DNA from: Kalaharituber pfeilii
Lineage: Eukaryota; Ascomycota; Pezizomycetes; Pezizales; Pezizaceae
Direction: 5' to 3'
DNA length: 64,000 nucleotides
Assembly (NCBI GenBank): GCA_015179045.1
Contig: WHUZ01000097.1
Coordinates: 124,001 to 188,000, forward strand
A program made the position numbers and the translations under genes. How positions within the stretch are numbered: the first letter of the stretch is position 1; every line of letters begins with the position of its first letter. Under the pieces are notes generated by a model that saw nothing but the letters and a program-made list of their open reading frames with translations, searched no databases and had not been told where the DNA came from. Below are positions 27,952 to 50,700 of this stretch, piece after piece.

Positions 27952-29314
27952 TGCGGCAGCCATTTCATTGGCAACAACCACCTTAGGACAAGCGTTTGGA
28001 AGCGACTCCACAACCACAACGTCCCCCCCGCTGAAAATTACATAGATCGAAAGCGCTCAGCGAGCTGAGTCTTTTGATCTAATTCTTATTCTCAAATACC
28101 GGATACAACAAATTTCCCCCCAGGGGAGAAATCTCGAGAATTTCTCAGCTCACCACCACCGTTGCCTGCACATCACCCACACCAACGCGGTGCCAAGACC
28201 CAATAGCATCCGACCATTTGACCCCAAACAGCCAATAGAAATGCCAAAAGACAAGAAAAACAAGAGACCCGCGCGCGTGGTCCCCGCGCCAGCCCCCGCC
28301 CCCGTCGACATGATACTGAAGGAGGCATGGTACGACATTCTGGTAGTCATATGGAAGGAAGAGACAGGAGTCAGTGAAACCCCACCCAACGGGGCAAAAC
28401 TGATCTTTCAGTTCAAAGACGACACAATCCCAATCCCCGACGGGATTTGCGCGCTGCAACCGGGCCAGCAACTGGAACAGACACTGGGGCTCAGCCCCAC
28501 CACCACGGTCGTATCCACACCACCATCTCCGCCACCGCCACCACCGCCTATGGGATTCAGCCGCGTCACCCACGTGGACACGGAACCCGTGACACCACCA
28601 CCACCGCCACCACTGAAGTTCAGCCCCATCACGTGGGCTGAGACACAACCGGAGGCACCGCCTCCACCGATACAGACAAGCTTGGGGCTTAGCCCCATCG
28701 CACGTATAGACACCAAACCGGCGGTCACAGGGAATACCAAGAGGAGGAAGAACAAGAGGACAAAGAAGGGAAAGACAAGTCCCCCTCCCCCGGGATCCCC
28801 CACACCCCCCACACCAACCCCCGAACCAACCCACACCACGCCCCCCCGCCCCCAGCCAGAGCCCCGCACCCAGACAATCAATCTGCGAACCAGCCGACAA
28901 CCTCCAACCGGCCCCCGAGACAAACAACACGGCATCGTGATACACGGTGTCGCCCTCAGGAAGGATTTGGAGAATGTCAGGAAGTGGCTGGAGACAGACA
29001 ACAAGGATATAGGCCAGACCACGGGCATCAGATGGCTGCGGAGAAAGACCACACTAGAAGAGGAAGGAAAAAAGACAAGCTCGGTGGTACTTTACACCAA
29101 GACTGAAGTGGATGCTGGGAAGGTCAGACTCGGAGGGAAATGGTTACGCTCGGAGGCGTACGAGCCAGGCAGAGGAAGGAAGTAGGCAGGCTCGGCACCC
29201 CTCCCACTACATGTAGTTAGACTGGTAGCTCTCTCTTTTCTTTAGTTAATTTACACCTCGCCATAGCCCTTAGGGCGGCATGCGAGTAATGAAATAAAAA
29301 AAAAAAAAAAAAAA
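27952..29314 (+). mobile_element. Gag-only LINE derivative, copy 1 (1363 bp)
   Basis: Flanked by TCTATATCATTCCAT (27937-27951) and TCTATATCATTCCGT (29315-29329), a 15-bp target duplication within the hairpin minisatellite. A 5' leader containing GGCAACAACCACC and CTCCACAACCACAACGTCCC is shared with copies at 33078-34503 and 49240-50700. One ORF1-like frame follows, then a 3' region ending CTCGCCATAGCCCTTAGGG, GCATGCGAGTAATGAAAT and poly(A). There is no endonuclease or reverse transcriptase. Confidence 0.85.
28241..29185 (+). CDS. ORF1p-like (gag) protein of gag-only element 1
   Basis: Start chosen at the ATG giving MPKDKKNKRP, because the copy at 49501 begins the same way (MPKKPKTRP). The reading frame is open upstream to 28190. 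The 314-residue product has a basic N-terminus, then tandem LGLSPI/MGFSRV/LKFSPI/LGLSPIARIDTKP-type motifs about 35 residues apart in Pro-rich linkers. A KRRKNKRTKKGK basic patch follows. The C-terminal module of about 90 residues (HGIVIHGVALRKDLENVRKW...GIRWLRRK...KTSSVVLYTK...VRLGGKWLRSEAYE) has an RRM-like beta-alpha-beta-beta-alpha-beta pattern. LINE ORF1 proteins normally continue into CCHC zinc knuckles; this one stops (TAG) directly after the last strand. Probable role: binding its own RNA in a particle with enzymes supplied in trans. Confidence 0.72.
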   Translation: MPKDKKNKRPARVVPAPAPAPVDMILKEAWYDILVVIWKEETGVSETPPNGAKLIFQFKDDTIPIPDGICALQPGQQLEQTLGLSPTTTVVSTPPSPPPPPPPMGFSRVTHVDTEPVTPPPPPPLKFSPITWAETQPEAPPPPIQTSLGLSPIARIDTKPAVTGNTKRRKNKRTKKGKTSPPPPGSPTPPTPTPEPTHTTPPRPQPEPRTQTINLRTSRQPPTGPRDKQHGIVIHGVALRKDLENVRKWLETDNKDIGQTTGIRWLRRKTTLEEEGKKTSSVVLYTKTEVDAGKVRLGGKWLRSEAYEPGRGRK

Positions 29315-29625
29315 TCTATATCATTCCGTATGGACTAGGAATGGTTTCCCACCTATGCCTATGCCTCTATAACGTTCCGTGCGGAACGGATGGGCCTTGA
29401 GCTTAAGCTCAAGGCCTTCGGGTCTGAACAGGCTCAAGGCCTTCCACCAGGAAGCAATGCTCCTATGGTTCCACCTATACCTATACCTCTATATCGTTCC
29501 ATGCACAATGGATAGGCTCGAGGCCTTCCAGCCAGACGAGGCTCAAGTCCTTCTGCCCCGAAGCAATACCCCCCATGGTCCTATCTATACCTATACCTTT
29601 ATAGCATTTCGTGTGGAACAGCTGG
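29315..29625 (+). repeat. Hairpin minisatellite, right block
   Basis: Three to four units of CTATATCATTCCGTATGGAC / AACGTTCCGTGCGGAACGG, separated by inserts rich in AGGCTCAAGGCCTTC. It is the continuation of the array interrupted by the gag-only element. Confidence 0.65.
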
Positions 29626-29982
29626 GTTGATTACAAGCGGCACAAGGTTTTTCTTCACAATTAGGAAAAATAATGCAAAGGCCCGCCGGCTGTCTACCAG
29701 GTTCAGCTCATTCTAGCTCATCTCATGGTGTCAGATCGGAGCTGTTGTAGGTATGAAACGCAGTTCATTCCACCTGATCTCACGCCAGTGGGTCGGGGCT
29801 GCCACATCTATCAAATTCAGCTCATTCTGCATTATCTCGTGGCGTCGAATCGGGCTGGCCGTACATGTCAAATTCACCTCATCTCTGGCCGTCGGGCCAT
29901 ACCTGCTCTACCAGTCAAATTCTCAGCTCATTGCAGCTCATTTCGTGCCCTTGGGTCGGAACTGCCATACATATCTCATGCC

Positions 29983-30247
29983 GAAATGGCAGCCGAAATG
30001 GCTACTGAGTTCGCTGCCACAATAGCTGCCGAAATGGCTACCGAAATGCGTACTGAAATGGCTGCTGAAAATGGCCGCTGAAATGGCTGCCAAAATACGT
30101 GCCGGAATGGCTACCAAAATGCATGCAGAAAAGGCTGCTGAAATGGCAGCCGAAATGGCTACCGAAATGCGTGCTGAAATGGCTGCCAAAATGGCTATCG
30201 AAATGCATTCTGAAATGGCTGCTAAAATGGCTACCGAAATGGCTACT
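29983..30247 (+). repeat. 12-bp minisatellite (GAAATGGCTACC)
   Basis: About 20 units of GAAATGGCTACC/GAAATGCGTGCT/GAAATGGCTGCC. It is translated as EMAT/EMAA in false frames. The array resumes after the LINE insertion at 30602. Related arrays lie at 31775-32003 and 32757-32812. Confidence 0.85.
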
Positions 30248-30601
30248 ACTTTAGGCATGATCCGAGGGGTCAGATGGTTACGAAAAAAGGCAATATTGGA
30301 GGAAGAAGGAAAAAAGACGAGCTCCGTCGTAGCCTACCTGGAGACAGAGACGAAAGCAGACAAGGTGAAACTCGGAGGACGGTGGCTGAGGACGAGCGTG
30401 TACGAGACGGACAGAGGAAGGAAGTAGACAGGCTCGGTACACGAGGACTTCACACGAGGACCTCTCTCCCGCATCATGTATGGACTCCGCGGGTAACATA
30501 TGTAGTTAGAAGACATTTTTATTTAAGTTTCTTAATATTAAAAACCTCGCCATAGCCCGTAGGGCGGCATGCGAGTAATGAAAAAAAAAAAAAAAAAAAA
30601 A
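30248..30601 (+). mobile_element. 5'-truncated gag-only LINE derivative (354 bp)
   Basis: Perfect 12-bp target duplication GAAATGGCTACT (30236-30247 and 30602-30613) inside the 12-bp minisatellite. The insert encodes only the last part of the RRM-like module (GVRWLRKKAILEEEGKKTSS...VKLGGRWLRTSVYE, TAG stop), then the type 1 tail ACCTCGCCATAGCCCGTAGG and poly(A). A 118-codon frame joining the minisatellite to this module is an accident of the insertion. Confidence 0.85.
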
Positions 30602-30837
30602 GAAATGGCTACTGGAATGGCTAGGGCCTGTCAAATTCAGCTTATTCCACTTCATCTTGTACCATCGGGTCGCACCAACTATACATATCAAGTGTATGCT
30701 GCCATTGCACTGCAAAGCTGCACTGCCATTGCACTGCGAAGCTGCGCTGCCATTGCGCTTCAAAAGTGCGGTGCCATTGTGCTTCCAAAGTGTGCTGCCA
30801 TTGTGCTGTGAAAGTGCGTTGCCATTGCGTCTCATCA

Positions 30838-30885
30838 TGCCAAGAAACCATGGAGCAGCTGTAGCTCCATGGTTTCTTGGCACAG
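30838..30885. repeat. 19-bp-arm hairpin TGCCAAG...CTTGGCA, copy 1
   Basis: TGCCAAGAAACCATGGAGC, seven bases, then its exact complement. The right arm is repeated twice more downstream (30905-30990) in direct units of about 58 bp. Copies of the hairpin also lie near 41931 and 45169, both flanked by homologous sequence. Confidence 0.8.
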
Positions 30886-30989
30886 GTGCTATACATTTCG
30901 TGCTACGGCCGCTCCATGGTTTCTTGGCATAGGTGCTATACATTTCGTGCTACGGCTGCTCCATGGTTTCTTGGCATAGGTGCTATACA

Positions 30990-31770
30990 TTTCATGATGT
31001 TGAAAGAGACTCGCCATACCTGAGATATTGACCTCATTCTGCCATTCTCGTGTCATCGATTGGGCCCTATGGTACGTGTCAGATAATTTCAATTTTCGCG
31101 AATGAAAGGGACCCGCCATACATACGAAATTGCACTTATCATGCCAGTCTCGTGCCATCCAACGGGTCCTACGGTACGTGTCAGATTCAGCTCACGTTCA
31201 CGATGTTGAAAGGGACCCGTCATATATATGAAATGCACACATTGTCCTTACGGCCGCCACACACCAAGCCACGACCGCTGGGAAGCCACGACCGCCGGCA
31301 AGCCACGACCGCTGGGAAGCCACGACCGCCGGCAAGCCATGACCGCCTCCCGTCTCCCGTCGGCAAGCTCATAGAACCGGCTAGCTATAGGGAGCTAGCA
31401 AGCTGCCAGTATAGCCCGCCTGCCACTATAGCCCTCCTGCCAGTATTGCCTGCCTACCAGTATGGCCCACCCGCCATTATAGCCCGCCTGCTAGGACCCA
31501 TATGGTTCATATGTTCTTGTTATTCTTGTCAATCCCTAGATCTAATTCAGTACTTGGTCTTCTCTGCCTTTTCACCATAGTCTGGCATCGCCGCTGAACT
31601 GGAACCACTGAACTACTACCGGCAAGCTTCTCCTGTCAAGGCTCTGCCGTTCAGCGCTTGAGAAGCTACTGTTACCCTGAACCGGTCGTATCCGTTAGCA
31701 GCACCAGCTCGCCGCCGCGTGACAATTGGAGCTCAGCTTGTGCCCTTGCGTCAGCACAGCCATGTGTATC
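30990..31770 (+). repeat. Segmental repeat, homologous to 45270-46140
   Basis: Holds AAAGGGACCCGTCATA-type blocks, a 17-bp tandem (AAGCCACGACCGCCGGC) at 31280-31345 and TATAGCCCGCCTGCCAGTAT repeats. The copy at 45.3-46.1 kb is interrupted by a LINE tail exactly in the 17-bp tandem. No gene is visible. Confidence 0.6.
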
Positions 31771-31774
31771 TAAT

Positions 31775-32005
31775 GGTGAAATGGCTGGTGAGTTGGCAGC
31801 CGAAATAGCACCCGAAATGCATGCTGAAAAGGCTGCTGAAATGGCTACCGAAATGGCTACCGAAATGCGTACTGCAACCGCTGCCGAAATGGCTGCTGAA
31901 ATGGCCGCTGAACTGGCAGCCGAAATGGCTACCGAAATGCGTGCTGAAAAGGCTGCTGAAATGGCTGCCCAAACGGCTACCGGAATGGCTACCGAGATGG
32001 TGTAA
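31775..32005 (+). repeat. 12-bp minisatellite, second block
   Basis: About 18 units of GAAATGGCTACC and variants. It runs open in several frames on both strands; none is credited. Confidence 0.8.
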
Positions 32006-33066
32006 TAAACTGGTCTGGGTGGGGTCGGCGGGTCGGGATTTCGGGGTCTCAGGGGGTCCAGGGTACCGGAACCGGGTACGGGGCGGGCGGCAGACGATTT
32101 CACAGCGGAGGCAGAGGCAGAGGCAGACGCAGAGGCAGAGGCGGTCGGAGCTATGTGATGCCGAGAGGTAGATGTATTGAAAAGCTAAATACACACCTTG
32201 GGTAGAATACAAGTTGGTGCGTGGAGAAGCAAGAGGGAGGAGGGCGGAGGGCCTCTTTTATAGAAAGCCCTCGGTGGCAAATCCAAGCAAACAAACAAAC
32301 GAGCAAACAAACAAACGAAGTACATGGAAAACCAAGGAAACGACTGGAAGTACATGGAAGGCCAAGGAAATGACTGGAAGCGGGTAGAAGCATGAGGAAT
32401 ATCCGGGAATGAGCTCAGTGATACCTGTTGCTGGTGGATTCCGAGGTCTTCCAGCAGGTTCTAAGGCTTTGCGGCAGGTTCGACGTCTTTTCGGCAGGTT
32501 CTGGGGACCCGAGTTCTTCTACCAGATTCTGGCACGTTCTTCCGGTTCGGGTTTGTAAGCGATGACTAGAATGCTGGCGGCCATGTTGCTCCTGTGAGCT
32601 CACAGGTGTAGGGCATATATGGGAATGCTAGAAGGAGTATACCGAGTTACGAGGGGGTCAGAGTCAGCTGCACGTGTGCAAATACTGGCATATAGTATGT
32701 TGATTGCCAGTATAGGACCGGAGCTGGAGGGTCTTGGGCGAGGGGTCCGATTACAGATGGCTAGTGAAATGGCTGGTAAAGTAGCTACCGAAATGGCTAC
32801 TGGAATGGTGGAAGGCCTGACCCAACAGCACGAGATGAATATATGCTGCTATTGCACTCCGAAGATGCGCTACCATTGCGCTGCTCAAGTACGGTGCCAT
32901 TGCACTGCTGCCATTGTGCTGCTGCAAAGGTGCACTGCGAATGTATGCTGCTATTGCACTCCGAAGATGCACTGCCATTGCACTGGGAAGATTTACAGCC
33001 ATTGCGTGTTACGGGCGTGAGGGGCTAGGCTCCGGTAGGCGTGGGAAGGTTCTGGATGTTACGGCT
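32006..33066. other. Simple-repeat-rich region without gene
   Basis: Contains (GCAGAG)n near 32110, (CAAA)n near 32285, TTCCGG/AGGTTC repeats at 32440-32540 and tandem TGCCATTGCACTG blocks at 32840-33000. The last are shared with 50700-50840, where they also precede the 33-bp minisatellite. Confidence 0.5.
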
Positions 33067-33077
33067 ACGGAGGAGTG

Positions 33078-34503
33078 TTTTTTTTTTTTTTTATATCAGT
33101 ACTCGCATGCCGGCCAATGGGCTATGGCGAGGTGTTAATTAAAGAAAGAAAAAAGCGCAACAGTAACTAACTACATGTGGTTCCCGCGATACTCGTACAT
33201 GGTGCAGGTAGGGTATGAAATCAATACAGCCTATTTCCTCCTCCTGTCTGGCTCGTATTGAGTTGTCCTCAAAAGTTTCCCTCCTACCCTGACTCTGTCT
33301 ATGTCCGTCGCTGGCTCCAAGTACACCACGACCGAGCTAGTCTTCTTGCCTTCTTGAATCAGCGTGGTCTTTCGTCTAAGCCAACGTATCCCAACAGTCT
33401 TGCCTAGTGTCTTGTCCAGCCACTTCCGCACCTTCGCCAAGTCTTTCCTCAATACAATACCATGTACTATGACGCCGAATGTCGATGTGGTGGCATCGGT
33501 GTTTGGCGAGGAGGCGGGGGGCTTGCTGGTCTTTGGTCTTGGTCTTGAGTCCGTGATTGGTGTCGGGAGTCTCATTGTTGGTGTTGGAGTTGGGGGTGAC
33601 ATTGTCGGTGTCGGGGTTGGGGGCTTTGTTGCGGCTGTGGTGGCGGTGCTGCCCGTGGGCGTTGCCGGGGTCCCGACCGAAGGCGAGTCTGCGATCTTTG
33701 CCTCTTTTGAATCCAGTCGTCGTTTGATTTCGTAGGGGGCTTGTGGTGACGGCTGTTTCCCTTTCCGTTTCCTGGTCAGGGGTGTTGTCTTGTCGGTATT
33801 CTTGTCCGCTGGTGGGGTGTCTACGCACATGATGGGGCTGAACCCCAATGTCTGTGGTACTGGTGGTGGCGCCGGTTCGATGTCTATGCAGGTGATGGGG
33901 CTGAACCCCAAAACAGCCTGTTGTGGTGGCGTCGGCTGAATGTCTGTGCTCGTGATGGGGCTTAACTCCAGAGTATATTGTAGTGGTGGTGGTATCTCCC
34001 TTCTCCTTGGTCCCGAACAACGACGCCGGCGGCGAGTCCTTGGTCCCAAACAGCGACGCCGGCGGGACCTGAACAACGACATCGGCGGCGACGGGGAGGC
34101 TGGTGGTGGCGGTGTGAGTATGGTCTGCGGGGGCGGCGGGGACCTGCCACGTCGAGCTAATGCCTCATCATACCTTTGCGCTGAGGCTTGAAGGCGTCTT
34201 CTCTCCTCCTTGTAGTCTATGGACATTGTCTTATTGGTCGTCTCGTGCTTATCCGTGACAGTCTACAGGGGCCTGGCGCCGAGTTGGTGTGGGAGGTGTG
34301 TTGGCAACAGGGGTGATGAGCTGAAGAATCCTCGAAATTTCTCCGCTCGGAGTAAATTTGCAGTGTTGGGCTTTTGGGATAAAAAATCAGATCAAACTAC
34401 TCAGCGCACTGAGAGCTTGCGATCTATGTAGGTTTCAGTGTGGGGAACGTTGTGGTTGTGGAGTTGCTTCCAAACGCTCGTCCTGAGGTAGTTGTTGTCC
34501 GTG
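33078..34503 (-). mobile_element. Gag-only LINE derivative, copy 2 (1426 bp)
   Basis: Flanked by a perfect duplication ACGGAGGAGTG (33067-33077 and 34504-34514). The paralogous locus at about 50888-50915 carries the same flanks without the insert (GGCTATGGAGGAGTGTATAC), which proves both boundaries. On the minus strand the order is: leader with GGACAACAACTACCTCAGG, ORF1-like frame, tail CTCGCCATAGCCC and poly(A). No reverse transcriptase is encoded. Confidence 0.92.
33231..34226 (-). CDS. ORF1p-like protein of gag-only element 2
   Basis: An intact frame of 331 codons from ATG at 34226. The N-terminus has an ERRRLQASAQRYDEALARR helix and an Arg-rich RSRRRR segment not shared with copy 1. Three tandem motifs follow (LELSPITSTDIQP, LGFSPITCIDIEP, LGFSPIMCVDTPP), then a basic RKRKGK patch and YEIKRRLDSKEAK. 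The C-terminal RRM-like module runs from GVIVHGIVLRKDL through GIRWLRRKTT and KKTSSVVVYLE to YEPDRRRK and a TAG stop. No CCHC knuckle is present. The open frame in a non-autonomous element suggests the protein is, or was recently, used. Confidence 0.72.
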   Translation of the reverse strand: MSIDYKEERRRLQASAQRYDEALARRGRSPPPPQTILTPPPPASPSPPMSLFRSRRRRCLGPRTRRRRRCSGPRRREIPPPLQYTLELSPITSTDIQPTPPQQAVLGFSPITCIDIEPAPPPVPQTLGFSPIMCVDTPPADKNTDKTTPLTRKRKGKQPSPQAPYEIKRRLDSKEAKIADSPSVGTPATPTGSTATTAATKPPTPTPTMSPPTPTPTMRLPTPITDSRPRPKTSKPPASSPNTDATTSTFGVIVHGIVLRKDLAKVRKWLDKTLGKTVGIRWLRRKTTLIQEGKKTSSVVVYLEPATDIDRVRVGGKLLRTTQYEPDRRRK

Positions 34504-34514
34504 ACGGAGGAGTG

Positions 34515-34975
34515 TATACGGCGGGCCGAAATGGCTACCGAGGTGTATATGCTGCTAGGCTCAATGGCTATGGAGGTGCATATACGGCGAGACGGAATTA
34601 GTAATGGCCACATCAGTGTATATATGATGGGCCTCAGTCGCTACGGCAGTGTGTATACTATGGGCCGGAATAGCCATGGAGGTGTATATGCTAGAGGCTG
34701 GAAAGGCCATGGAGGTGTCTATGCTGTAGGCCGGAATGGCCGTGGAGGTGTATATGCTGCCCGGTGGAATGGCAACGGAGGTATTTATGCTGTATGCCGG
34801 AATGGGTACGGAGGTGTATATGCTGTATGCCGGAATGGCCATAGGGTGTATATGCTGTAGGCTAGAATGGTTGCAGAGGGATATGTGCTACGGGCCAGAA
34901 TGGCTGCGGAATTGTGTATGCTGTAGGGTGGAATGGACACATCGGTGTATATATGGTGGACCGGAAGAGTAGCTG
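34515..34975 (+). repeat. 33-bp minisatellite, array a
   Basis: About 13 units of GTGTATATGCTG...GCCGGAATGGCTACGGAG. It gives repeating 11-residue false frames (GMATEVYMLYA). It was split from its left flank by gag-only element 2. Paralogous arrays: 48540-49085 and 50890-51335. Confidence 0.88.
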
Positions 34976-35084
34976 TATAGCATGGAGTGTCATTTGAGTA
35001 GAGCAGTTGTTGTTGAATTCAGCTATGCATTGGGCCGCTAATTGGGCACTCATTGGGTCCTGTATTTGGGCATTTATTAGACAT

Positions 35085-35435
35085 TGCTAGAGCCACTCCA
35101 GAGCTACCTTAGAGCTATTTAAGACTTCTAGAGCTACCTTAAAGCTACTTTAGAAGCATTCAAGACGTTCAAAGTTATTTCAAAGCTATGTTAGACCTTC
35201 TCAAGACTTGTAAAGCTACCTCAGAGCTACTTCAGAGCTACTTAAGAGTACTAAAGACACCTCTAGAGTCACTCAAGAATGCTAAAAACACTCCAGAGCT
35301 ACTTAAGAACGCTAGAAATACTCCAGAGCTGCTTGAGAACGCTACAAATACTCTAGAGCTGCTTGAGAACGTTATAGATACTCTAGAGCCGCTTGAGAGT
35401 ACTGCAGACACTCCAGAACCACTCAACACCTGACG
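35085..35435 (+). repeat. 30-bp minisatellite (ACTCCAGAGCTGCTTGAGAA)
   Basis: A degenerate left part (AGAGCTACTT...) grades into five to six regular 30-bp units. Residual related sequence follows array c of the 33-bp minisatellite (51450-51500). The Leu/Glu-rich frame across it is not credited. Confidence 0.75.
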
Positions 35436-37195: not shown

Positions 37196-37350
37196 ACGTG
37201 CCCGATGTGGTAACGATCTGCCCCCCTGTAACGATCCTACATTTTCACCCCCGCTTCGGCAACCTGCTCCTCATCTTTCAACCGCGATTATCCTGCATAT
37301 CTCAGCGAATTCTACATATTTTGAACTCGTTTTACCCGCAGTTAATAGCT

Positions 37351-39390
37351 ATGCGACAGGAAAGTAAGCCTGAAAACATTAACCGAGCAATCGCTTATGC
37401 ATACAAACATCGGGAAGAGTCAATACCAAAAATTGCTTCCTACTTTGATGTAAAAGCTATTACATTACATAGACGACTCGATGGGGTACAGAAAGGAAGG
37501 AAGGAGGCTCGCGAAAGGCAGCAATTGCTTACTAGAGGTGAAGAGAATGCATTAGAAGCCTGGGCACTTACAATGAGTGATATGGGCTTTCCAGTTCATT
37601 TGCGAATGCTGAGATCTATGGCTGTTTTAATTCTGCAGCCAAGGTTTAGCAATGCAGTTCCAGGAGATCGGTGGCATGAGAGGTTTTTACTTCGACATCC
37701 CATAGTTAACAGCAAATATGTACAATATCTTGAGCGCATTCGGCATTCGCAAGGGACAAATATTCCAGCGTAGAAGGCATTTTATCGGTCACTTCGGACT
37801 ACAATGCGCCAACTTAAGATCACCCCTGACAACCTCTGGACCTATGATGAAAAGGGTATTATTATGGGCATTGCAACTGGCAGGCAGAAATGTATTGTTC
37901 GAGCAGGTCCAAAGCGAAAAATTGCAGTTACTGATGGCAATCGAGAATTTGTTACTGTCATAGAGACAGTAAATGCTGCTGGTCACATCATTCCTCCATA
38001 CCTTGTCTGGCAGGCGAAAACCCATAGAGAAGGCTACTACGGTGCTGAGGGTGTCCATAAACTTCCTGCAACTTTTGGACGCTCGCCTAGTGGATACATG
38101 GATGATGAACTAGGTGTTGAGTTTATAATATATCACTTTGAGCCATATACTCGCCCCGTGAACCCTACCACTACCTCCACTGCCTCCACTGCCTCCACCG
38201 CCCCTGCCTCCACCGCCTCCACCGCCTCTACCGCCGGCACCCCCATAGCAACCGGCCTTCCTACAAGCACTATACATGACAAACGCAGTATAATTATTTC
38301 GAGCGATTCACTGACCTTACCTCCCTCTAATATATCCGAATATCCTTGGCGCCTTTTAATTGTTGATGGTCACTCTTCCCATGTCGCTTACCAAGTCGTT
38401 GAATATGCACTCAATCACCGGATTCAAATGCTTTGTCTTCCCCCACATTCAACTCATTTAATGCAACCTCTTGATGTTGGATGTTTCTCTCCTCTCCAAA
38501 GACACTACCGCAATGGCTTACAAGATTGGATATATCAAAAGCCTCGTGATATTTTGCGCAAACCTGACTTCTGGGAAATTCTTTGTGGTGCCAGACAATC
38601 TACTTTTACTACCGATACTATTTTGGGTGCATGGCGGGGGTCTGGATGCTGGCCTATTGATCCCGACAAAGTTATTCCTCCTCAAGTTCAAGCGACAATG
38701 ACGGTCAATTCAGATCTCTCTATATTAGATACTCCATCAAAGCAAATAGTACTGCGAACTGCTCTGGACAAGGCAATTTTGACTCCACATACACGCAAGA
38801 CTGTGATGGATCATGTATTGTTTCTGGAGGAAAAGCTAATAAAATATACGGTGATTGAGCCTAATGCTACAACCTTCAAAGCTCTACGGAATGGTAAGAT
38901 GGTCAAAAAAGCTCCGGCTGGTAGTTTGAAGCATATTAAAGGCCCTCGGACTCTTAATCGAGCGTATATTGAATCCTCTCGACAAGCCGAAGTCAAAGCA
39001 GCACTGGAAGCAGAGGAAAAGAAAGAGCGGAAGAGGCTGGAAAAGGAACAGAAAGCAGTAGAGAAGATAAGAAAAGAGGAAGAGAAAATTCAGAAGGCAG
39101 AGGAGCGACGAAAAATAGCCCAGGATAAGAAAGAAGCTGCTGAAGTGAAAAAGCAGCTAGCAGCGGAGGAGCGAGAAAGAAAGGCAAAAGAGAAACAAGA
39201 ACAGAGAGAAATAGCTGCAGCTGAGCGGGCTGCAAAGGGAGGTCGTGGGGGAGCTCGCGGGCGAGGCCGGGGCCGAGGAAGGCCTTTGGTTCAGGAGGTG
39301 GGAGGGTCCGAACACCTGCTAGGGGGGGGGGGGGGTGAAGGAGGTTCCAGTAGTAAATCTCGAGCCACAGACCTCTTCTATCATACCTGA
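37351..39390 (+). CDS. Pogo-like DDE transposase, one in-frame TAG
   Basis: 680 codons, split only by TAG at 37771-37773 (codon 141). The N-terminus has a psq-type helix-turn-helix (EESIPKIASYFDVKAITLHR) and a CENP-B-type helix-turn-helix up to about residue 130 (GDRWHERFLLRHP). The DDE_1 core keeps its acidic residues: D166 in YDEKG, D339 in LLIVDGHSSH, D375 in QPLDVG. Unusually, a Thr/Ser/Ala tandem of about 25 residues sits between the first two. The C-terminus is a Lys/Glu coiled coil, then a Gly-Arg box. A run of 14 G (39322-39335) follows. The frame downstream in another phase (to 39547, acidic SPEDSEDTDDDIE) probably is the original C-terminus, displaced by slippage. Catalyses cut-and-paste at TA. 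It is probably inactive as it stands. Confidence 0.88.
39322..39335 (+). repeat. Poly(G)14 slippage site in transposase
   Basis: Fourteen consecutive G near the transposase 3' end. After it the annotated frame ends within 20 codons. The alternative phase remains open for about 70 codons and is matched by the diverged sequence at 56300-56505. Confidence 0.8.
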
Positions 39391-42362: not shown

Positions 42363-42596
42363 GCTCAACGTGCTCAACATGAGCAATGTGCCCAATATGT
42401 TTTACATTTCATGTACATGCTCAAATGTGCCTACATCTCATAAGCGCACTCAACGTGCTCAAATGCTTAATGTGCTCAACATGCTTAACATGCTCAACAT
42501 GCTCCATGTATTCTACAATTCCATATCTCATACGTGCGCCCAATATGCCCAATGGTATGAAGATAGTCAATTAACTCAATTTGGCAATATCGCAGC

Positions 42597-42725: not shown

Positions 42726-43223
42726 AGTACAAGTACCACTAGGTACCTCTACGTACTACCAGTGATTGAGTATAGAGAAACATTCTGCTACCAGCGTTAA
42801 TTGATAGCCAGTTACTGTATGCTAGCACAGCCCTATTGCCACTGACAAGTTGCCACCTACAAGTTGCCACTTGAAAGTTGCTGTCGGTGATAAGTTGCTA
42901 CTTCTTACCCACATACTAGAAGATAATACAGACAGTTTAATTAATTCACTACGCTTCTAGACTGCTATAGTTAAGAATACCAATTTGTAATCATAACTAA
43001 ATTATTGTTAACCGAAACACTAGAAGAAAATTACTAAATATGCTTCTAGTATTCTTCTTACTCTAAGCGAAATTTTGGAGTGTTATCTTCATAGGTAGAG
43101 ATTTCCGGAATCCTCCGCCATTCTGGTATTATATTGTGGCAGTAACAGGGATTGCGTTGATGCCAAGAATGAAAAGTTTGGTGGTTGTATTACCAGAAAC
43201 AGTAGATAATAAGAGCCCTGCAA
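42726..43223. other. No supported gene
   Basis: AT-rich unique sequence with a CAAGTTGCCAC repeat (42845-42890). Nothing coding is recognised. Confidence 0.4.
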
Positions 43224-43424
43224 GTGCCAAGTACCCACTTTAAGCAACCTCATCATGATAAAACTTGTCAAGACAAAATTTTATGTTCTTGTCTAGGTAC
43301 CTGTTCTTCTCTTCGTTGTACATGCATATGTCAAAAGGTTAAATGTTCTTATTCTTGTAATAAAAGCAATGCTGGTCAATGTACTAACCAGGAGAATGAG
43401 AGTGAACATAGTGATGTATATTTA
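43224..43424 (+). pseudogene. Cys-rich coding remnant (CXC-like)
   Basis: One frame gives about 60 residues dense in Cys with spacing like CSCLGTCSSLRCTC and CSYSCNKSN. It resembles CXC-type Cys clusters found near the C-termini of some eukaryotic transposases (for example the KDZ superfamily). It runs without a stop into the gag-only fragment that begins near 43425, so its original 3' end is lost. No other part of a transposase was found. Confidence 0.35.
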
Positions 43425-43792
43425 GGGAAGGTCCGGAAATGGTTGGAGTCCGGGAATGATAGGCTAAGCAAGACCGTGGGGATAAGGTGGCTGAGACGAA
43501 AGACCGCGCTACTGGAAGAAGGAAAAATGACCAGCTCGGTCGTGGTGTACTTGGAGGCAGCGACGGGCGTAGACAGAGTTAGGTTAGGTGGGAAATGGTT
43601 GAGGACCACTCAATACGAGCCGGACAGACGGAGGAAATAGGCTGTATTGACCAGTGCGTACATTCTACCCGCACCATGTATGAGTATTGCGAGCACCACA
43701 TGTATTTAGTGACGGTTAATTTTCTTTCTTTAATAAATACCTCGCCATAGCCCATACTGCGACATGCGAGTAATGATAAAAAAAAAAAAGTA
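43425..43792 (+). mobile_element. 5'-truncated gag-only LINE derivative
   Basis: Begins within the RRM-like module (GKVRKWLESGNDRLSKTVG), continues KMTSSVVVYLEAATGVDRVR to YEPDRRRK and a TAG stop (43638-43640). The 3' region ends ACCTCGCCATAGCCC and poly(A). No clear target duplication was found. Confidence 0.75.
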
Positions 43793-43899
43793 CTATTGTT
43801 TGTACATAGATGACTGCATAGGGGGATAGGAGACTGTGGAAATTGCTTAGCTGGCTGTATGATAGATCACTATTACATTAAATCATAAGCGAGTATATA

Positions 43900-44072
43900 G
43901 GGGGGGGAGAGAACGTTGGCGGAGGTGATGGACTGGGCGGCGGAGTAACCGGTCATATTTTCACTTTATCTCCTTATCTGTTACTTATTTTTCCGTTGAT
44001 TATCATTCATGTATCTAAACCCTCGCCATAGCCTGCAAGGCAGCATGCGAGTAATGATATATAAAAAAAAAA
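43900..44072 (+). mobile_element. SINE-like element copy 2 (173 bp)
   Basis: Flanked by ATAAGCGAGTATATA (43885-43899 and from 44073). After a short G-rich 5' addition it starts AACGTTGGCGGAGGTGATGG, the same start as 27336, and ends with the type 1 tail CCCTCGCCATAGCCTGCAAG plus poly(A). Confidence 0.75.
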
Positions 44073-44114
44073 ATAAGCGAGTATATATATTACATATAGG
44101 TACATCGAGGTACA

Positions 44115-44275
44115 TTCATGTTCGCCGCTGGGCCAGGTGTTCGTGGCTGGGCTGGCCCCGTGAAAAACACCATATGTTTTTCACGGGGCCGGCCGGTTCA
44201 CGAATCGGCTGGCCGGTTCGCGAACCGGAAAATGTTCGTCGGTGGGCCAGAACATCTGAACTGCCCTGGTTAGTA
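44115..44275. repeat. Palindrome cluster 2 with 16-bp perfect hairpin
   Basis: GGCCCCGTGAAAAACA (44154-44169), five bases, then its exact complement (44175-44190). Nearby is the perfect palindrome CCGGTTCGCGAACCGG. It is related to cluster 1 at 42597. Confidence 0.8.
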
Positions 44276-45165
44276 CATTATGGAATTGAGATTAAGTTTA
44301 TGGTGTTGAAAAGGGGGCGGAGTCAGATACGTACTGCGCTCTCCCTTGGGTTACTGAATTGAGTGCTGGTGAGGTCGCTTGGGCCCCCGTTGGGTCTCGT
44401 ATAGGTTGCTACATTCGGAGCTGATTCTACAGAGCGAGGGGTTAGAGGGTCGCCCATACCAAATTTCAGTCGCAGGTCGGGTGTATGCCAGGGGTATTTT
44501 CTTTCAAATCTTGGCATGCGGCATGAATTAAACTCAAGTTGGCCGCTTTTTTTCTATGCTAGCATGGGCATATCTGATGCTAGCCACAAATGGGGTTTTT
44601 TTTTTTGCGACGCCGGCCAAAAGTGCTTTGACGCTAGCCTAAATGAAAATCACTAGGATGCACATCACACATATTTTACTTTTTATCACATTGTGGCCGT
44701 TGCTTTATGCCCGTAGCACATTTTGCCCACACGAAATATGCTGAAACTGGCTCATCGCGAGTGCTTGTAAAGTTCGTTGAAAATAGACTCCTCGTGCCTA
44801 TAGAAAACAGCCCATTTCGGATATGTCAAATACGTCTGAAAATTGCTTTCGCGCACCTGAGTTGAATGGGCCAGTTTGCGCATAAATATTTCGTGATAGG
44901 GTGTCCAAATTCATTATGTAAGGAAGTATTTGGACAGCTGACGTGATGAAATTTGGACAGCTGACATAATGAATTTGGACTTTTCACACCAATTCTTTCT
45001 GCCCAAGCATACGAAAATATGCTAGTTTCCGCCAAAAACCGCATAGCGCATAATATGCATTATCCCCTGTCCAAATACTTATTTTTCTGTCTAGTACTTA
45101 TGTATATGTCATATTATATTGCCATTGCGGTACTTCCCATACCAGACATGCGTGCTACCTTGTCT
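44276..45165. other. Repeat mosaic without gene
   Basis: Contains T-rich spacer, a 58-bp-minisatellite remnant (about 44690-44880) and the inverted copy (44895-44990) of the 23755 repeat. No coding frame is credible. Confidence 0.45.
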
Positions 45166-45168
45166 CAT

Positions 45169-45215
45169 CATGCCAAGAAACCATGGGGCGGCTGTAGCTC
45201 CATGGTTTCTTGGCA
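45169..45215. repeat. TGCCAAG hairpin, copy 3
   Basis: TGCCAAGAAACCATGG...CCATGGTTTCTTGGCA. The left arm has one substitution relative to 30838 (GGGGC for GGAGC), so the stem keeps a mismatch. Confidence 0.75.
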
Positions 45216-45576
45216 TAGGTGCTATACACCGTGCTACCACCGCTCCATGGTTTCTTGGCAAAGGTGCTATACATTTCGTGATGTTGAAAGAGACCCGCCA
45301 TACCTGTGATATTGACCTCATTCTGCCATTCTCGTGTCATCGATTGGGCCCTATGGTACATGTCAGATTCAGGTCACATTCACACATCTCGCGACATTGA
45401 AAGGGACCCACCATACATATGAAATTGCACTCATCATGCCACTGTCGTGCCGTCTAAAGGGCCCTACGGGACGTGTCAGATTCAGTTCACGTTCACACAT
45501 CTCACGATGCTGAAAGGGACCCGTCATACATATGAAATTGCACACATTGTCCTTACAGCCTCCACACACCAAGCCA

Positions 45577-45750
45577 AGGGTCAAGTTCTAGAAGGTAGGA
45601 GAATGCGGGGTTAAGTTCTAGAAGCTAGGAGAGCGGGGGCGACGGCGCGTGGGGCCCATGTACGTAGAGAGTTAGTTTAGCCTGTCTCCGGGCTATGAGG
45701 GCTTGCCCAGGGACCCTGCCATGGCCAAGTGCTACAAGCGGGGTTATGTG

Positions 45751-45780
<30 letters not shown>
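45577..45780 (+). mobile_element. LINE 3' end, type 2 (204 bp)
   Basis: Flanked by AAGCCA (45571-45576 and 45781-45786). The intact paralogue at about 31278-31290 shows the site without the insert. Contents: GGGTCAAGTTCTAGAAGG, GGGCTTGCCCAGGGACCC, TGCCATGGCC, CAAGCGGGGTTATGTGATT, poly(A) of about 28. Confidence 0.88.
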
Positions 45781-45783
<3 letters not shown>

Positions 45784-46418
45784 CCACGACCGCCGGCAAG
45801 CCATGACCGTCTCCCGCCGACAGCCGGCAGGCTCATAGAACCGGCTAGCTATAGGTAGCTAGTAAGCTGCCACTATAGCCCGCCTGCCAGTATAGCCTGC
45901 CTACCAGTATGGCCCACCCGCCAGTATAGCCCGCCTGCTAGGACCCACATGGTTGCTCGCAGTCCATATGTTCTTGTTATTCTTGTCAATCCCTAGATCT
46001 AATTCAGTACTTGGTCTTCTCTGCCTTTTCACCATAGTCTGCCATCGCCGCTGAACTGGAACCACTGAACTACCACCTGCAAGCCTCTCCTGTCAAGCCT
46101 CTGCCGTTCAGCGCTTGCAAAACTACTGTTACCCTGAACCGGAATACAATTACCCTTCCCAGTGGACACAACTAGAGATGAATGGGAAACAGCCATCACC
46201 GAAGCTGAAGACGAGGGCTGGGTGAGCCACTACACTGATGGCAGTCGAATAGAAGACGCATCTGGAGCCGGGTTATACCAACAACACCCGACAAAGAGGA
46301 TATCAAGGTATCTAGGTCGATGGAGCACCGTCAATGATGCTGAACTAATAGCTATGAGCGAAGCCCTGAACACTCGAGGCAACGAGCTGCTAATCATCAC
46401 TGACTCAAAGGTAGCCAT

Positions 46419-46482
46419 TTTTTTTTTTTTTTTTTCCCTTTCACGTGACCCCGCTTGTAGCTGTTCGCCATGGCAGGGCGAA
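46419..46482 (-). mobile_element. Tail-only LINE insertion, type 2 (64 bp)
   Basis: T run, then CACGTGACCCCGCTTGTAGC, TGTTCGCCATGGCAGGGC. Flanked by the 12-bp duplication AAAGGTAGCCAT (46407-46418 and 46483-46494) inside the RNase H coding sequence. Confidence 0.9.
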
Positions 46483-46508
46483 AAAGGTAGCCATAACCAA
46501 GCTCCAAC

Positions 46509-46512
<4 letters not shown>

Positions 46513-46539
<27 letters not shown>

Positions 46540-47246
46540 TTATCACGTGACCCCGCATGCAGCTGTTCGCCAAGGCAGGGCCCCTGGGTCTAAACCCTCA
46601 AAGCCCGGAGGCAGGCTTACCTAACTACCCCTCCGCCGCCATCTCTACAAACGGAAAACTCAACCCCTCCCCGCCCCACCTCCCCGAGGCACTAAAATAA
46701 CTACAACTTTCCTCCACCGCCACCTTCGAACAAACGAAAAATCGCCCCCTCCCCCTACACCCTGCCGTCCACTTCTTCTCGTCAATATCCTCCCACCTTC
46801 CCCATCCTTCCGGGTACTCTACCTCCTCACACCTGAACGCCAGGTGGTCTGCCGTTTGCTTTTCTCCACACCCGCACCTGCTCCCCTCTGCCGCCTTTAC
46901 ATGTATTTCCCGCTGTTTCCATTAGTCTTGCGGGAGGGAAAGCGGCCAGCAGTCTTCCTCACCCCCGTCCCCTTTCGGCCTCATACCGGCACGCCCTCAA
47001 CCATCTTCCTCCGAGCCTAACCCTGTCGACATCCTGCTGGTCCTCCAGAAAAACTACCACCGAGCTCGTCTTCTTTCCTTCCCCAACCAGTAAGTCTTTC
47101 CTTCTCAACCAGCGAACCCCAACAATCTTCCTCAGGTCCTTATTGTCCTCACCCAGCCATCGTTGCACCTTCCCTAAGTCCCTTCTCAACGCGACCCCAT
47201 GTACAACGATGCCGGCCCTGACCTTCGGTTTTGGCTTCGGCTCCGG
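46513..47246 (-). mobile_element. Internally deleted LINE: gag RRM joined to pol C-terminus
   Basis: Flanked by a 13-bp duplication AGCTCCAACGGAT (46500-46512 and 47247-47259). On the minus strand it encodes the RRM-like end of ORF1 (AGIVVHGVALRRDLGKVQRW, GVRWLRRK, KKTSSVVVFLE, YEAERGRG). Within a few bases, in another frame, comes the pol C-terminal Zn motif RCGCGEKQTADHLAFRC. The type 2 tail and T run follow. The whole reverse transcriptase and RNase H are missing, so this is a deletion derivative that then retrotransposed. Confidence 0.85.
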
Positions 47247-47527
47247 AGCTCCAACGGATTGCTGACGGCGAACCCACCTACGATGGGGCTTCACAGCTGG
47301 TACGAGAAGCATGGGACCGAAGGGAGCAAGCTGGAGACCGGGACGTGGCAGTCATGTGGGTAAAAGGCCACAAGGGTGTATATGGCAATACAGAAGCGGA
47401 CCGAGCGGCCAAGATTGGCACCTGCCTGCAATACCAAGAGGAAGTCATAACCGAAGAGACACCATTGTCTCAATCCTTTGTCCCCCATGATGCCTGCGAA
47501 GTGTGGCTACCCTCCTTCTGGTCCCCA

Positions 47528-48525
47528 GGTATTCGAGTGGCCTGTACGTCAGCTGTAGTCTCTTTCTCTCCACCCCTCTACTAGCCTTCGCCTCTTGTCG
47601 GATGCCCGCTTCTGTCACCGTCTCGTCCTGGTATTGTAGCGCCGTGGCTATTTTGGCCGCACGTGTCCGCCTCGGTGTTACCGGCTATATCTCTGTGTGC
47701 TTTTACCCACAGAATCGCCAGGTCTCGATCCCCCCTCGACATCCTTTCATCCCACCTTCTCCGTACCCACTCCTCTGCTCCTCCTGGGGTTAGGTCCCCC
47801 CTGGCTATCCCCTTCATCCTTGTCACCGTGGTCCTGGAGTCCGTTACGATTAGCAGCTCCCCCTCTCTGCGCATGGCCTCTCCCACCGCTAACAGTTCGG
47901 CATCATTGACTGTACATCTTTCCCCTAGGTATATGGATGTGTCTTTTCCGGCTCGATGCACTCCGGCGCCTGTCTTGTCCTCCATTCTGCTCCCATCAGT
48001 GTACACACTCATCCATCCTTCTTCTTCCCCCCCAGCTATCAGTCTCTCCCACTCCTCCTTACAAAGATCGGACGGGTGTATTGGGTGCACATGTAGAGGT
48101 AGGGAGTCTCTGTGTCCAAGGGCCCCTCTTAGGTATATCGTGTCCGGCTGTGGTCTTCTGACTGGTTCATCACCGAACCTCAGTGTCCGGGCCTCTACCC
48201 TCTCTGCCTCCCCATAAACAAACGTCTCGACGGACTCCAGGTTTGTTAGTCCTTCTACCACGTCCCGTCTCGTCCCCCACGGGGCCCCCGTTATTTCTCT
48301 CGCCACGACGTATTGCCACCTCTCCAACGATCTGATTTTACCTTCTGGAGATGCTCCTTTCGCGTACTCCACCCACGCCCAGCACCCCCAGGTCGCAATA
48401 TTCCTTGCAATTCCTGTATATAACTGTCTCCGTCTGGCTGGCGGTATTCCTTTCAGTCTGGCTGCTATCCTCCATGCCGCTTTTCCTAGGTGTAGCCTCC
48501 GGTTAAAATAGTCATTAAACTTCAT
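47528..48525 (-). pseudogene. LINE pol fragment: RT C-terminus plus RNase H (minus)
   Basis: Open for 314 codons. It begins in the region after reverse transcriptase (YFNRRLHLGKAAWRIAARLK, IATWGCWAWV, WQYVVAREITGAPWG), then RNase H: VYTDGSRMEDKTGAG, NDAELLAVGEAM, IVTDSR, AILWVKAHRDIAGNTEAD. One extra base near 47662 shifts the frame; the original reading (AAKIATALQYQDE) resumes in the next phase to about 47528. It is truncated at 48525 where the 33-bp minisatellite starts. All catalytic acidic residues are present, so decay is recent. Confidence 0.85.
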
Positions 48526-48539
48526 CTCCCAGTCGATGT

Positions 48540-49085
48540 GGAGGCGAAATGGCTATGGAGGTGCATATACTGGGAGGCGGAATTAGTAATGGCCATGGAG
48601 ATGTATATACGACGGGCCGAAGTCGCTACGGCGGTATGTATACTGCGGGCCAGAATGGCCACAGAGGTGTATATGCTGCAGGCTAGAATGGCCACGGAGG
48701 TGTATATGCTGTGGGCAGAAATGGCGACAGAGGTGTATATGCTGCCCGCTGGAATGGCAACGGAGGTGTACATGCTGTGGGCCGGAATGGCTATGAAGGT
48801 GTATATGCTGCAGGCTGGAATAGCCACGGAGGTATATATGCTGTGGGCAGGAATGGCCACAGAGGTGTATATGCTGCCCGCCGGAATGGCAACGGAGGTG
48901 TATATGCTGTGGGCCGGAATGGCTATGGAGGTGGATATGCTGTGGGCTGGAATGGCTACGGAGGTGTATCTGCAGGCCGGAATCGGCTGGGAGGTATAGA
49001 TGCTATAGGCCAGAATGGTTACAGAGGTACATATGCTAAAGGCCGGAATGGCTACGGGGGTGTATATATGGTAGACCGGAAGGGC
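48540..49085 (+). repeat. 33-bp minisatellite, array b
   Basis: About 16 units of GGAATGGCTACGGAGGTGTA / TATGCTGTGGGCC. It has the same downstream sequence (GAATTCAGCTATGCATTGGG) as arrays a and c. Confidence 0.88.
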
Positions 49086-49239
49086 AGCTGTTCGGCGTGG
49101 AGCACCAGGAGAGGGAGGCAGTTTTTGTTGAATTCAGCTATGCATTGGGCCGCACATTAGGCTACACTTTGGGACCTGTATTCGGGCATTCATTAAACCA
49201 CACGTTGCATTACTGTAACAATCCAACCCGGACCCGTCA

Positions 49240-50700
49240 GGACAACAACCACCTCAGGACGAGCGACTCCACAACCACAACGTCCCCCCCAGCGACATCT
49301 ACATAGGTCGAAAGCTCTCAGCACGCTGAGTCTTTTGATCTAATTTTTATCCCTCCAAACCACAACTTGCAAGTTTCCCCTCAGGGTGAAGCTTCGAGGA
49401 GTTTTTCAGCTTAACACCGCCGTTGCCACACATCGACCACACCCCGCCGGCGCCAAGATCCAATAGGAAACCCCCAAACCGGTGCCAAGAACCAGTAGGA
49501 ATGCCCAAAAAGCCAAAGACCCGCCCTCCCCGCCGCCTCCTCGGCCCCGGCACCCCGTCCGCCTCTGTGCCCGATCCCGTGGCACAATGGGTCGAGACGC
49601 AAAAGAAGGAGACCGCCGCTTCTCCTGAGAAAGGAGCGAAGACAGAGACCCCCGCCTCTCCCCCCTCAGACCCTCCCCCGCCGCGCGCGCCTCCCCCAGT
49701 GGCGGAGGAGAAACAGAAGACATGCCCCCCCATACCAGACTGGGAAGACCTCGTGGAAAGACTACAACGCGTGGGCATCGACTGGGACACGGTATTGGCT
49801 GCAAGATGGAAACGGTCCTGGAAAAAATACAGAGGAAGCGATTCCGACCCTACGGAAGGTCGTTTATGGTGATACAGTTCCTTGACGACGAATTCCGGGA
49901 CTTTGACATTCAAGTAGGAGGTCCGGACGACCCCCTCCCAGAAGTCGGGACACCACAAGCCCCGGAAGAGCTGGGATTCAGCACCATCACCACCTGCGCG
50001 GAGGAACCACCCACTTCGGAGGATACAGCCCCTGCCACGAACCCACACGCCATCCCCGCACCCGACACGAGACCGGAAAATGCGCGAAACAAGAAGCGCA
50101 AAGGAAAGACCCCGTCCCCTCAGGACTCCTACGCGATCAAACGCCAGCTTGATGACAAGGAGGCAAGAAGGATTGCGTCCGCACCTCCGGTCGGCGACAC
50201 CGCAGGCACCGCGCCTGATAACACCACCCCATCAAGCTCCAAGCCTACCCCGAGCCCAACGCAAAAGACCCAGACACCCAGGACTCCCTCCCGCCCCAAG
50301 ACCAAGCTCCCCACCACACCACCTACCCCCGATGCCAGCACCACGACAAAGATCGGCATCGTTGTACACGGAATAGCCCTGAGTAAGGACTTAGGGAAGG
50401 TCCGGAGATGGCTGGAGGCAGCTAACCAAGAATTAGGCAAGACTACCGGCATCCGTTGGCTGAGAAAAAAGGACACGTTAGTCAACGAGGGAAAAACGAC
50501 AAGCTCAGCGGTGGTCTACTTGGAAAACCATACCGACGTTGGAAGAGTCAGGCTTGGAGGGCGATGGCTGCGAGTGGACCAGTATGAATGGGACAGAGGA
50601 CGGAAGTAGGGAGACGAACAGACTGGCCCACTACTACCCGCACCATGGATGAGCACCGCGGGTATTACATGTATTTAGACAATTAGTCGTTCTTTATATG
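49240..50700 (+). mobile_element. Gag-only LINE derivative, copy 3 (3' tail lost)
   Basis: The leader begins GGACAACAACCACCTCAGG, as in copies 1 and 2, followed by an ORF1-like frame and a 3' region ACCCGCACCATGGATGAG...ACATGTATTTAG shared with 43650-43720. The terminal CTCGCCATAGCC tail and poly(A) are absent; the sequence switches near 50700 to the block that precedes 33-bp array c. Confidence 0.8.
49501..50609 (+). pseudogene. ORF1p-like frame of gag-only element 3, one frameshift
   Basis: Starts MPKKPKTRPPRR and continues to about 49860 (DWDTVLAARWKRSWKKYRGS). It then needs a one-base shift into the frame FLDDEFRDFDIQVGGPDDP to 50609. It carries one LGFSTITTC motif, the basic KKRKGKTPSPQ patch, SYAIKRQLDDKEARR, and the RRM-like module IGIVVHGIALSKDL, GIRWLRKKDT, KTTSSAVVYLE, YEWDRGRK with a TAG stop. 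Compared with copy 2 the FSPIT repeats are reduced from three to one. Confidence 0.75.

Follow-up and report, generated by a model that had tools for sequence, protein, structure and literature searches.

Mammals are already known to have half-LINEs of broadly similar type to the elements described here, and a mildew fungus provides a related case. Copies of the mammalian HAL1 have poly(A) and TSDs, and the enzymes used by HeT-A of Drosophila are presumed to come from TART or TAHRE. HAL1, a derivative of L1, is non-autonomous and encodes ORF1p only (PMC5753468, cited section); HeT-A is non-autonomous as well, lacks pol and codes for a Gag-type protein only (PMC5537684, cited section). Stringent-type LINE/SINE pairs have a conserved 3' stem-loop (PMC4176376, cited section). 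Among the Blumeria EKA/AVRK1 repeats (Satine and Kryze LINEs), ORF1 copies are very numerous and mostly devoid of ORF2: within the cited portion of PMC4641428, none of nine AVRK1-like repeat consensuses represents a complete LINE having the two ORFs, and just one of 34 full-length fragments has an RT-RH region behind ORF1. An earlier, sequence-only reading of the locus analysed here knew of no fungal description of such elements, a statement that is not supported in view of this related Blumeria case. A fungal half-LINE with a shared tail was not found in the open-licence literature searched.

We examined a group of repeats from the desert truffle Kalaharituber pfeilii and consider it likely that they are non-autonomous ORF1-only LINE-type retroelements that mimic LINE tails and are thereby mobilised in trans. 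Like HAL1, they code for ORF1p only, with no endonuclease (EN) or RT in the copies read, and display poly(A), TSDs and 5' truncation. Unlike HAL1, which derives from L1, they share, in the sequence examined, only the 3' hairpin with the resident LINEs L069 and L070, and their ORF1 is proline-rich and lacks a zinc knuckle. The parallel with HAL1 drawn in the sequence-only reading thus holds for the ORF1-only, non-autonomous organization, whereas strict descent is unsupported, because the leader was seen neither in L069 nor in the examined part of L070 and homology of ORF1 was not detectable. With HeT-A the elements share a non-autonomous nature, the lack of pol and a single Gag/ORF1-type protein, but they are dispersed and flanked by TSDs, copy B being opposite in strand to A and C, whereas HeT-A forms head-to-tail telomere arrays. 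As in stringent-type pairs, the 3' stem-loop is homologous to that of the resident LINE, yet the passenger encodes a conserved protein and no tRNA, 5S or 7SL head appeared in the Rfam scan, so that the definition of a SINE (short, non-coding, with such a head) does not apply. The EKA/AVRK1 repeats are read as truncated copies and an effector reservoir, with known parent LINEs and a cysteine-rich domain in ORF1, whereas the truffle elements are TSD-flanked units with their own leader and tail and no cysteine domain seen. From LINE ORF1s combining an RRM with CCHC knuckles they differ by having no CCHC zinc knuckle after the module.

Copies in the window

The window, i.e. the whole stretch of 64 kb analysed (GCA_015179045.1, contig WHUZ01000097.1, positions 124,001 to 188,000), was compared against itself by self-BLAST; all coordinates refer to it (Table 1). 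Module DNA of three long copies (A, B and C) and of both truncated copies is mutually alignable, and leader identity among A, B and C is 75.9-80% across 230-241 alignment columns. The 3' tail is common to A, B and both truncated copies, which end in one hairpin (tail1) followed by poly(A). Copy C has lost its tail, and four relatives (L040, L041, L046 and L051) run on into tail and A-run at the point where C ends. No EN or RT lies behind ORF1 of A, B and C, and their proteins matched no Pfam family at E 0.1. Self-BLAST, reading frames and Pfam agree in these respects with the sequence-only reading, which had described a common leader, a single ORF1 ending in an RRM-like module without EN or RT, a tail in two of the three long copies and frames of 314-331 codons in two of them (A and B).

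Table 1. Positions of ORF1-only copies and LINE pieces in the 64-kb window
Feature	Position	Strand	Remarks
5'-truncated LINE	27336-27522	+	ORF2 C-terminus TLAEIMDWAAE stop, compared with L071; tail1 hairpin at 27458; poly(A); TSD TCCCTGAGGCCGG at 27323-27335 and 27523-27535 (by eye)
5' TSD of copy A, TCTATATCATTCC	27937-27949	+	13 bp; 3' partner 29315-29327
Copy A	27952-29314	+	long copy
Leader of copy A	27972-28201	+	self-BLAST; stem-loop predicted
ORF1 of copy A	28241-29185	+	314 codons from ATG 28241; 331 if upstream GTG counted
RRM-like module of copy A	28922-29182	+	
tail1 hairpin of copy A	29257-29292	+	poly(A) directly after
5'-truncated copy	30248-30601	+	partial module, 3'UTR, tail1, poly(A); 12-bp TSD GAAATGGCTACT
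Copy B	33078-34503	-	leader 34274-34503; ORF1 33231-34226, 331 codons; tail1 33096-33131
TSD of copy B, ACGGAGGAGTGT	33067-33078 and 34504-34515		12 bp
5'-truncated relative of B	43425-43792	+	module, 3'UTR, tail1; TSD sought, not found
5'-truncated LINE 3' end	about 43914-44074	+	TLAEVMDWAAE stop, tail1 hairpin at 44022; by eye
Chimeric 5'-truncated copy	46512-47255	-	RRM-like module and stop, LINE ORF2 C-terminal remnant out of frame (CGCGEKQTADHLAFRC), tail2, poly(A); TSD AATCCGTTGGAGCT
LINE ORF2 fragment with RNase H	47581-48525	-	98% DNA identity to LINE L071
Copy C	49240-50700	+	leader 49240-49466; frame open 49629-50609, in-frame stop immediately ahead of 49629, 295 codons from ATG 49722; module 50346-50606; no 3' tail

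ORF1 of copy A starts with a basic stretch, followed by a variable N-terminal part, proline-rich LGLSPIT-type repeats and the C-terminal RRM-like module. It ends 7 residues past the last strand, and no cysteine pattern was seen by eye after the module in 14 aligned ORF1s, in line with the absence of a zinc knuckle noticed earlier. The sequence-only reading gave no strand for copy B and did not list the chimeric copy, which sits within a piece of LINE RNase H sequence, or the two LINE ORF2 3' ends.

Copies A, B and C all have a predicted stem-loop in their leaders, but it shows only weak covariation (2 cells, compared with 0.6 +/- 0.7; 4 of 34 leader pieces, two aberrant and two close variants of others, were omitted), and a conserved leader structure is for this reason not claimed. 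Scanning of positions 27900-50900 with Rfam gave six matches, all below gathering scores and none inside copy A, B or C, and no tRNA, 5S or 7SL match up to E 1.

Units and ORF1 across the genome

The leader pattern, searched with at most two mismatches, occurs 360 times (180 + 180) in the genome, which is above chance, the reversed-pattern control giving 0. Exact matches to tail1 and tail2 number 2100 and 368, respectively (reversed-pattern controls 0). Among 35 leader-to-module units examined, 28 finish in tail1 and an A-run, and 18 of these 28 are flanked by a TSD of at least 8 bp, compared with 1.7% of shuffled pairings. Six of the 28 represent a single duplicated insertion of B; counting it once leaves 16 of 23. 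The other ten of the 28 lack a TSD of at least 8 bp, which counts against the reading given here; T-rich ones, such as that of L012, had been filtered out. TSDs reach 14 bp. The typical complete unit consists of a leader, an ORF1 whose C-terminal part is the RRM-like module, a 3'UTR of about 110 nt, the tail1 hairpin and poly(A), often between TSDs; 5' truncation, poly(A) and TSDs, all present here, are marks of retrotransposed copies.

These units might instead be recurrent HAL1-like deletion derivatives of a past or present autonomous LINE clade with an RRM ORF1, the selection on ORF1 being that of the autonomous parents. HAL1s did arise several times from L1 (PMC5753468, cited section), and the chimeric copy, in which the RRM-like module is followed by what is left of a LINE ORF2 C-terminus and by tail2, demonstrates that a module-ORF2 junction exists in the genome. 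Among the matches listed, 5 of 125 leaders also have an ORF2/RT place less than 8 kb downstream on the same strand, and 4 of 150 modules have one less than 6 kb downstream. These cases are few and at varied distances, two of the five leader neighbours being nested insertions in B, and, coming from listings of the best-scoring matches, they are weak evidence. In the DNA examined, no module enters ORF2 ahead of its own tail. Of 71 C-terminally complete modules, 56 are followed within 450 nt by tail1 and an A-run (regex), one by tail2 and 14 by neither; among these 14, seven records (six places) have a tail by eye; the other seven show no tail or just part of one, and the 1.0-1.6 kb examined behind them gave no LINE match. 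Same-strand LINE sequence near the 71 modules, probed with both LINE clades, starts only past the element's own tail. None of 12 systematically sampled leader copies leads into EN or RT as one element, as judged with L069 and L070 proteins, and none of the copies read forms the front part of a LINE; the sequence-only reading had named continuation of most copies into EN and RT as the outcome that would speak against it. Behind the module of L081 there is a 402-codon frame, without Pfam match. The copies read do not look like random deletions of a resident LINE: their units contain no EN or RT and their own tail precedes any LINE. In addition, the three long copies and the truncated ones have 3'UTR motifs in common (by eye) that BLAST did not find in L069 or L070, which speaks for a single ancient origin of the short form, and protein searches returned K. 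pfeilii proteins only (15 of 15 with the best 7990 candidates scored; 21 of 22 together with that of the window). We regard derivation by recurrent deletion as unlikely. Most of the loci were found because their DNA resembles copy A, B or C, and this favours tail1 copies; locus searches scored the best 40-150 of 504-4891 candidates and family-level searches the best 150 of 2278 and the best 150 of 1769.

Substitution ratios show that the module of this family (family I) evolved under purifying selection, most pairs being saturated at synonymous sites. Among 39 modules, 559 of 741 pairs were saturated; after six B duplicates had been dropped, median omega over the final 141 pairs was 0.149, against 1.02 and 1.38 in shifted frames. 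The sequence-only reading had made its case depend on such selection. This value bears on the idea that the elements are SINE-like passengers, for which the RNA alone is enough and ORF1 is decoration. A 3' stem-loop shared with passengers and recognised by the LINE protein is indeed the stringent-type scheme (PMC4176376, PMC5135761, cited sections), but a ratio near 0.15 in the true frame and 1.0-1.4 in shifted ones fits it poorly, as do the absence of tRNA, 5S and 7SL matches noted above and the frames of a second ORF1-only family. There, 55 of the best 150 modules scored lie within frames of at least 300 codons, with lengths clustered at exactly 322 (15), 319 (16) and 316 (5) codons. A decorative ORF1 is hence very improbable.

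For the RRM-like fold, no Foldseek match reached an E value lower than 0.001; Z did not attain 8, a level that according to the tool may reflect no more than a common arrangement. In Pfam, 14 ORF1 members gave hits to five families, each through a single member, the best at E 0.02; four PDB chains matching the ORF1 alignment at E 1.1-1.2 were taken as chance. Many such ORFs are annotated at NCBI as hypothetical proteins, and Blumeria has ORF1-derived effectors (PMC4641428, cited portion), so one could imagine that the ORF1 copies serve the host as a domesticated or effector-like family comparable to what has been proposed for the EKA genes, their repeat structure being a residue. Leader, tail, poly(A) and TSDs nevertheless accompany the copies, many are broken or truncated, and near-identical ones (A and L010) occupy different target sites; a role in the host seems highly doubtful.

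The 3' hairpin and the resident LINEs

Variants of one hairpin end both the ORF1-only units and the resident LINEs of the L070 clade, as alignment of the tails shows. Tail1 of copy A equals that of L070 at 46 of 48 positions, and variants of it are carried by L069, L084, L086 and L087, the last being the 3' end of L071. In tail1, both partners of a pair are altered in 28 cells, compared with 7.4 +/- 2.1 after shuffling (0 of 500 shuffles as high); the counts of pairs that covary (3, with 2.1 in shuffles) and of types of pair (9, with 8.1 in shuffles) are not exceptional. The autonomous LINE with the same leader and tail that the sequence-only reading proposed to look for was found in part: L069 and L070 have the tail hairpin, but the family I leader is absent from L069, whose 5' end lies inside the locus (by eye), and from the examined part of L070 (about 180 nt ahead of the start codon of ORF1). 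Homology of family I ORF1 to that of the putative helper found no support, hhalign giving a probability of 0.7% with only two LINE sequences, L069 and L070.

Since the hairpin is identical in kind to that of complete LINEs, the ORF1-only elements probably move with borrowed enzymes. The leader may be the source of the element RNA, and ORF1p might bind RNA via its module, most probably acting in cis on the RNA that encodes it. The endonuclease and RT of an L070-type LINE would then recognise the hairpin and insert the RNA by target-primed reverse transcription. A working ORF1p would yield more offspring copies, and ORF1 would thereby be retained in an element devoid of enzymes. LINE ORF1p raises the question why an enzyme-less parasite should keep a structural protein, and here many ORF1-only elements occur in one genome beside an intact-looking candidate helper LINE. 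Because these are coexisting separate elements, with two tails that point to two helper pairings, the cis action of ORF1p and the specificity of tails become directly testable.

Recent movement and a second family

Copy A has moved recently: L010 differs from it at 7 of 1332 positions and yet has another TSD. The view that the family keeps moving is thus upheld for A. It does not extend to B, where seven of eight full-length copies examined, including that in the window, have the flanks of one insertion and are its duplicates, only L004 being independent.

The second family would follow the same scheme with tail2 and another LINE clade, whose 3' end tail2 is. Exact tail2 lies 70-359 nt downstream of 33 of 42 second-family modules on contigs C1-C71, and exact tail1 was found near none of 13 such modules on C1 and C2. 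We give roughly even chances to the broader proposal that at least two ORF1-only families are lasting lineages of their own, with a selected RRM-like ORF1p (selection as seen in family I) and with leader, ORF1 and 3'UTR unrelated to the helper, riding two LINE clades via a matching and exchangeable 3' hairpin. The chimeric copy at 46512-47255 pairs a family I module with tail2, which suggests that tails can be exchanged.

Anatomy and spread of family I

We use family I for elements of the type of copies A, B and C in the window, in which typically a leader, an ORF1 ending in an RRM-like module, a 3´UTR, the tail1 hairpin and poly(A) follow one another. In the 78 Mb assembly of Kalaharituber pfeilii (a desert truffle; the window is C358:124001-188000 in G000), the leader pattern occurs 360 times at up to two mismatches, the control giving 0. 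The ORF1 profile matched only proteins of this species among the matches listed (15/15). From this single genome about 299 kb were read (sum of locus lengths).

Every eighth of 100 listed leader places was sampled (n=12). Seven carry a module on the leader strand (L073, L074, L077, L080, L081, L082, L083), four do not (L072, L076, L078, L079), and L075 is a B copy interrupted by a nested truncated LINE, with B pieces on both sides. None of the 12 leads into endonuclease or reverse transcriptase as a single element when probed with proteins of L069 and L070, two LINEs bearing a tail1-type hairpin. Among 71 distinct C-terminally complete modules in the loci read, a regex search found tail1 and an A-run within 450 nt behind 56, tail2 behind one and neither behind 14. 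On visual inspection of the 14, a tail is present in seven records (L073 twice, L019, L072, L031, and L030 and L037, which are one and the same place); the other seven have no tail or a remnant (L039, which is copy C, L081, L034, L080, L064, L068, L054). Same-strand LINE matches behind modules, probed with both LINE clades, start past the element's own tail or far off (L040, L050/L051, L025, the window copy at 43640).

Leader and module stand together in 35 units, 28 of them ending in tail1 and an A-run. TSDs of at least 8 bp flank 18 of the 28 (1.7% in shuffled flanks), or 16 of 23 when six units representing one duplicated B insertion are counted once. Since seven of eight fetched B copies have common flanks, B multiplied mostly through duplication. 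Copies A and L010 differ at 7 of 1332 positions and occupy different target sites.

The B-type copies L001-L003 and L005-L008 are part of duplicated segments that contain minisatellite-like GGAATGGC..GAGGTGTATATGCTG repeats. Several are no more than a few kb from a contig end; the location is possibly subtelomeric. In L011-L014 the leader and 5´ part are A-like (~80%, up to 590 nt) and the module is best found with the C probe; they are mosaics between subfamilies.

Selection on the module, and a tail common with LINEs

The family-I module has a median omega of 0.149 (141 usable pairs, 33 copies), the other two frames of the identical alignment giving 1.02 and 1.38; p-distances by codon position are 0.24/0.19/0.48. 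In a set of 39 modules the five closest pairs (dS 0.05-0.2) had a median of 0.41, as expected if copies decay once inserted.

The tail1 hairpin has 2100 exact genomic matches (control 0). Across 74 distinct versions 95.8% of cells are paired, and 28 cells are altered on both pair sides versus 7.4 +/- 2.1 in shuffles; covarying pairs (3 versus 2.1) and pair types (9 versus 8.1) are not exceptional. The 3´ end of L070, a LINE with an ORF1 frame of 1056 codons and a 1095-codon ORF2 that includes EN, RT and RNase H, is identical to tail1 of A at 46 of 48 positions, and other versions end L069, L084, L086 and L087. BLAST of A and B against L069 and L070 matched the tails and nothing else, the L070 leader comparison covering ~180 nt upstream of the ORF1 ATG; the 5´ end of L069 falls within its locus (by eye, with an imperfect target repeat). 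Profile comparison of the family-I ORF1 with the ORF1s of these two LINEs gave a probability of 0.7%.

Anatomy, TSDs, selection and a covarying hairpin common with LINEs are shown for family I. We propose that transcription would start from the leader, that ORF1p would bind RNA via its RRM-like module and act in cis, and that ORF2p of L070 type would recognise the tail1 hairpin, insertion proceeding via target-primed reverse transcription. Such recognition of a 3´ hairpin by ORF2p has been shown for zebrafish stringent LINEs (PMC4176376). HAL1 (PMC5753468), HeT-A (PMC5537684), tail-sharing LINE/SINE pairs and Blumeria ORF1 repeats (PMC4641428) each have part of these features, and ORF1 evolution in the Jockey superfamily is known to be reticulate (PMC4120745). 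In open-licence literature we found no fungal ORF1-only lineage whose leader and ORF1 are unlike those of its tail-sharing helper.

A second ORF1-only family and tail2

A divergent module adjoining L023 (L023:95-391, minus strand) recurs at no fewer than 150 genomic places (the best 150 of 1769 candidates). In 55 of the 150 scored places it lies inside a frame of at least 300 codons, lengths of exactly 322, 319 and 316 codons occurring 15, 16 and 5 times. On contigs C1-C71 exact tail2 follows 70-359 nt downstream in 33 of 42 cases and is absent in nine, the commonest distances being 218, 234 and 281 nt. One second-family copy, in L042, was followed through to tail2 and an A-run. On C1 and C2, exact tail1 was found near none of 13 second-family modules, and family-I modules there have exact tail1 at 102-118 nt in 5/9 and tail2 in 0/9. 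Tail2 also lies ~120 nt past a LINE ORF2 frame in L025, which includes RNase H and a CCHC-like motif, and behind sequence of the same type in L078; a second LINE clade is therefore the likely tail2 helper.

In the chimeric copy of the window the C-terminal ORF2 remnant is out of frame and 99% identical in L017 (L017:43-381). This copy represents either a tail exchange or a deletion scar in a LINE formerly carrying a family-I ORF1.

Further features of the window
Feature	Position	Strand	Reading
Tet/JBP-type oxygenase ORF (PF12851)	26039-26698		
Tc5-type HTH and DDE_1 transposase ORFs	37198-39390		
Short piece with tail2 and poly(A) at its end and no visible ORF	45570-45782		possibly SINE-like or a truncated LINE
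Family-I module, ORF2 remnant of tail2-LINE type, tail2	46512-47255	-	chimeric copy
674-codon ORF spanning tandem repeat	51903-53927		probably a repeat artefact
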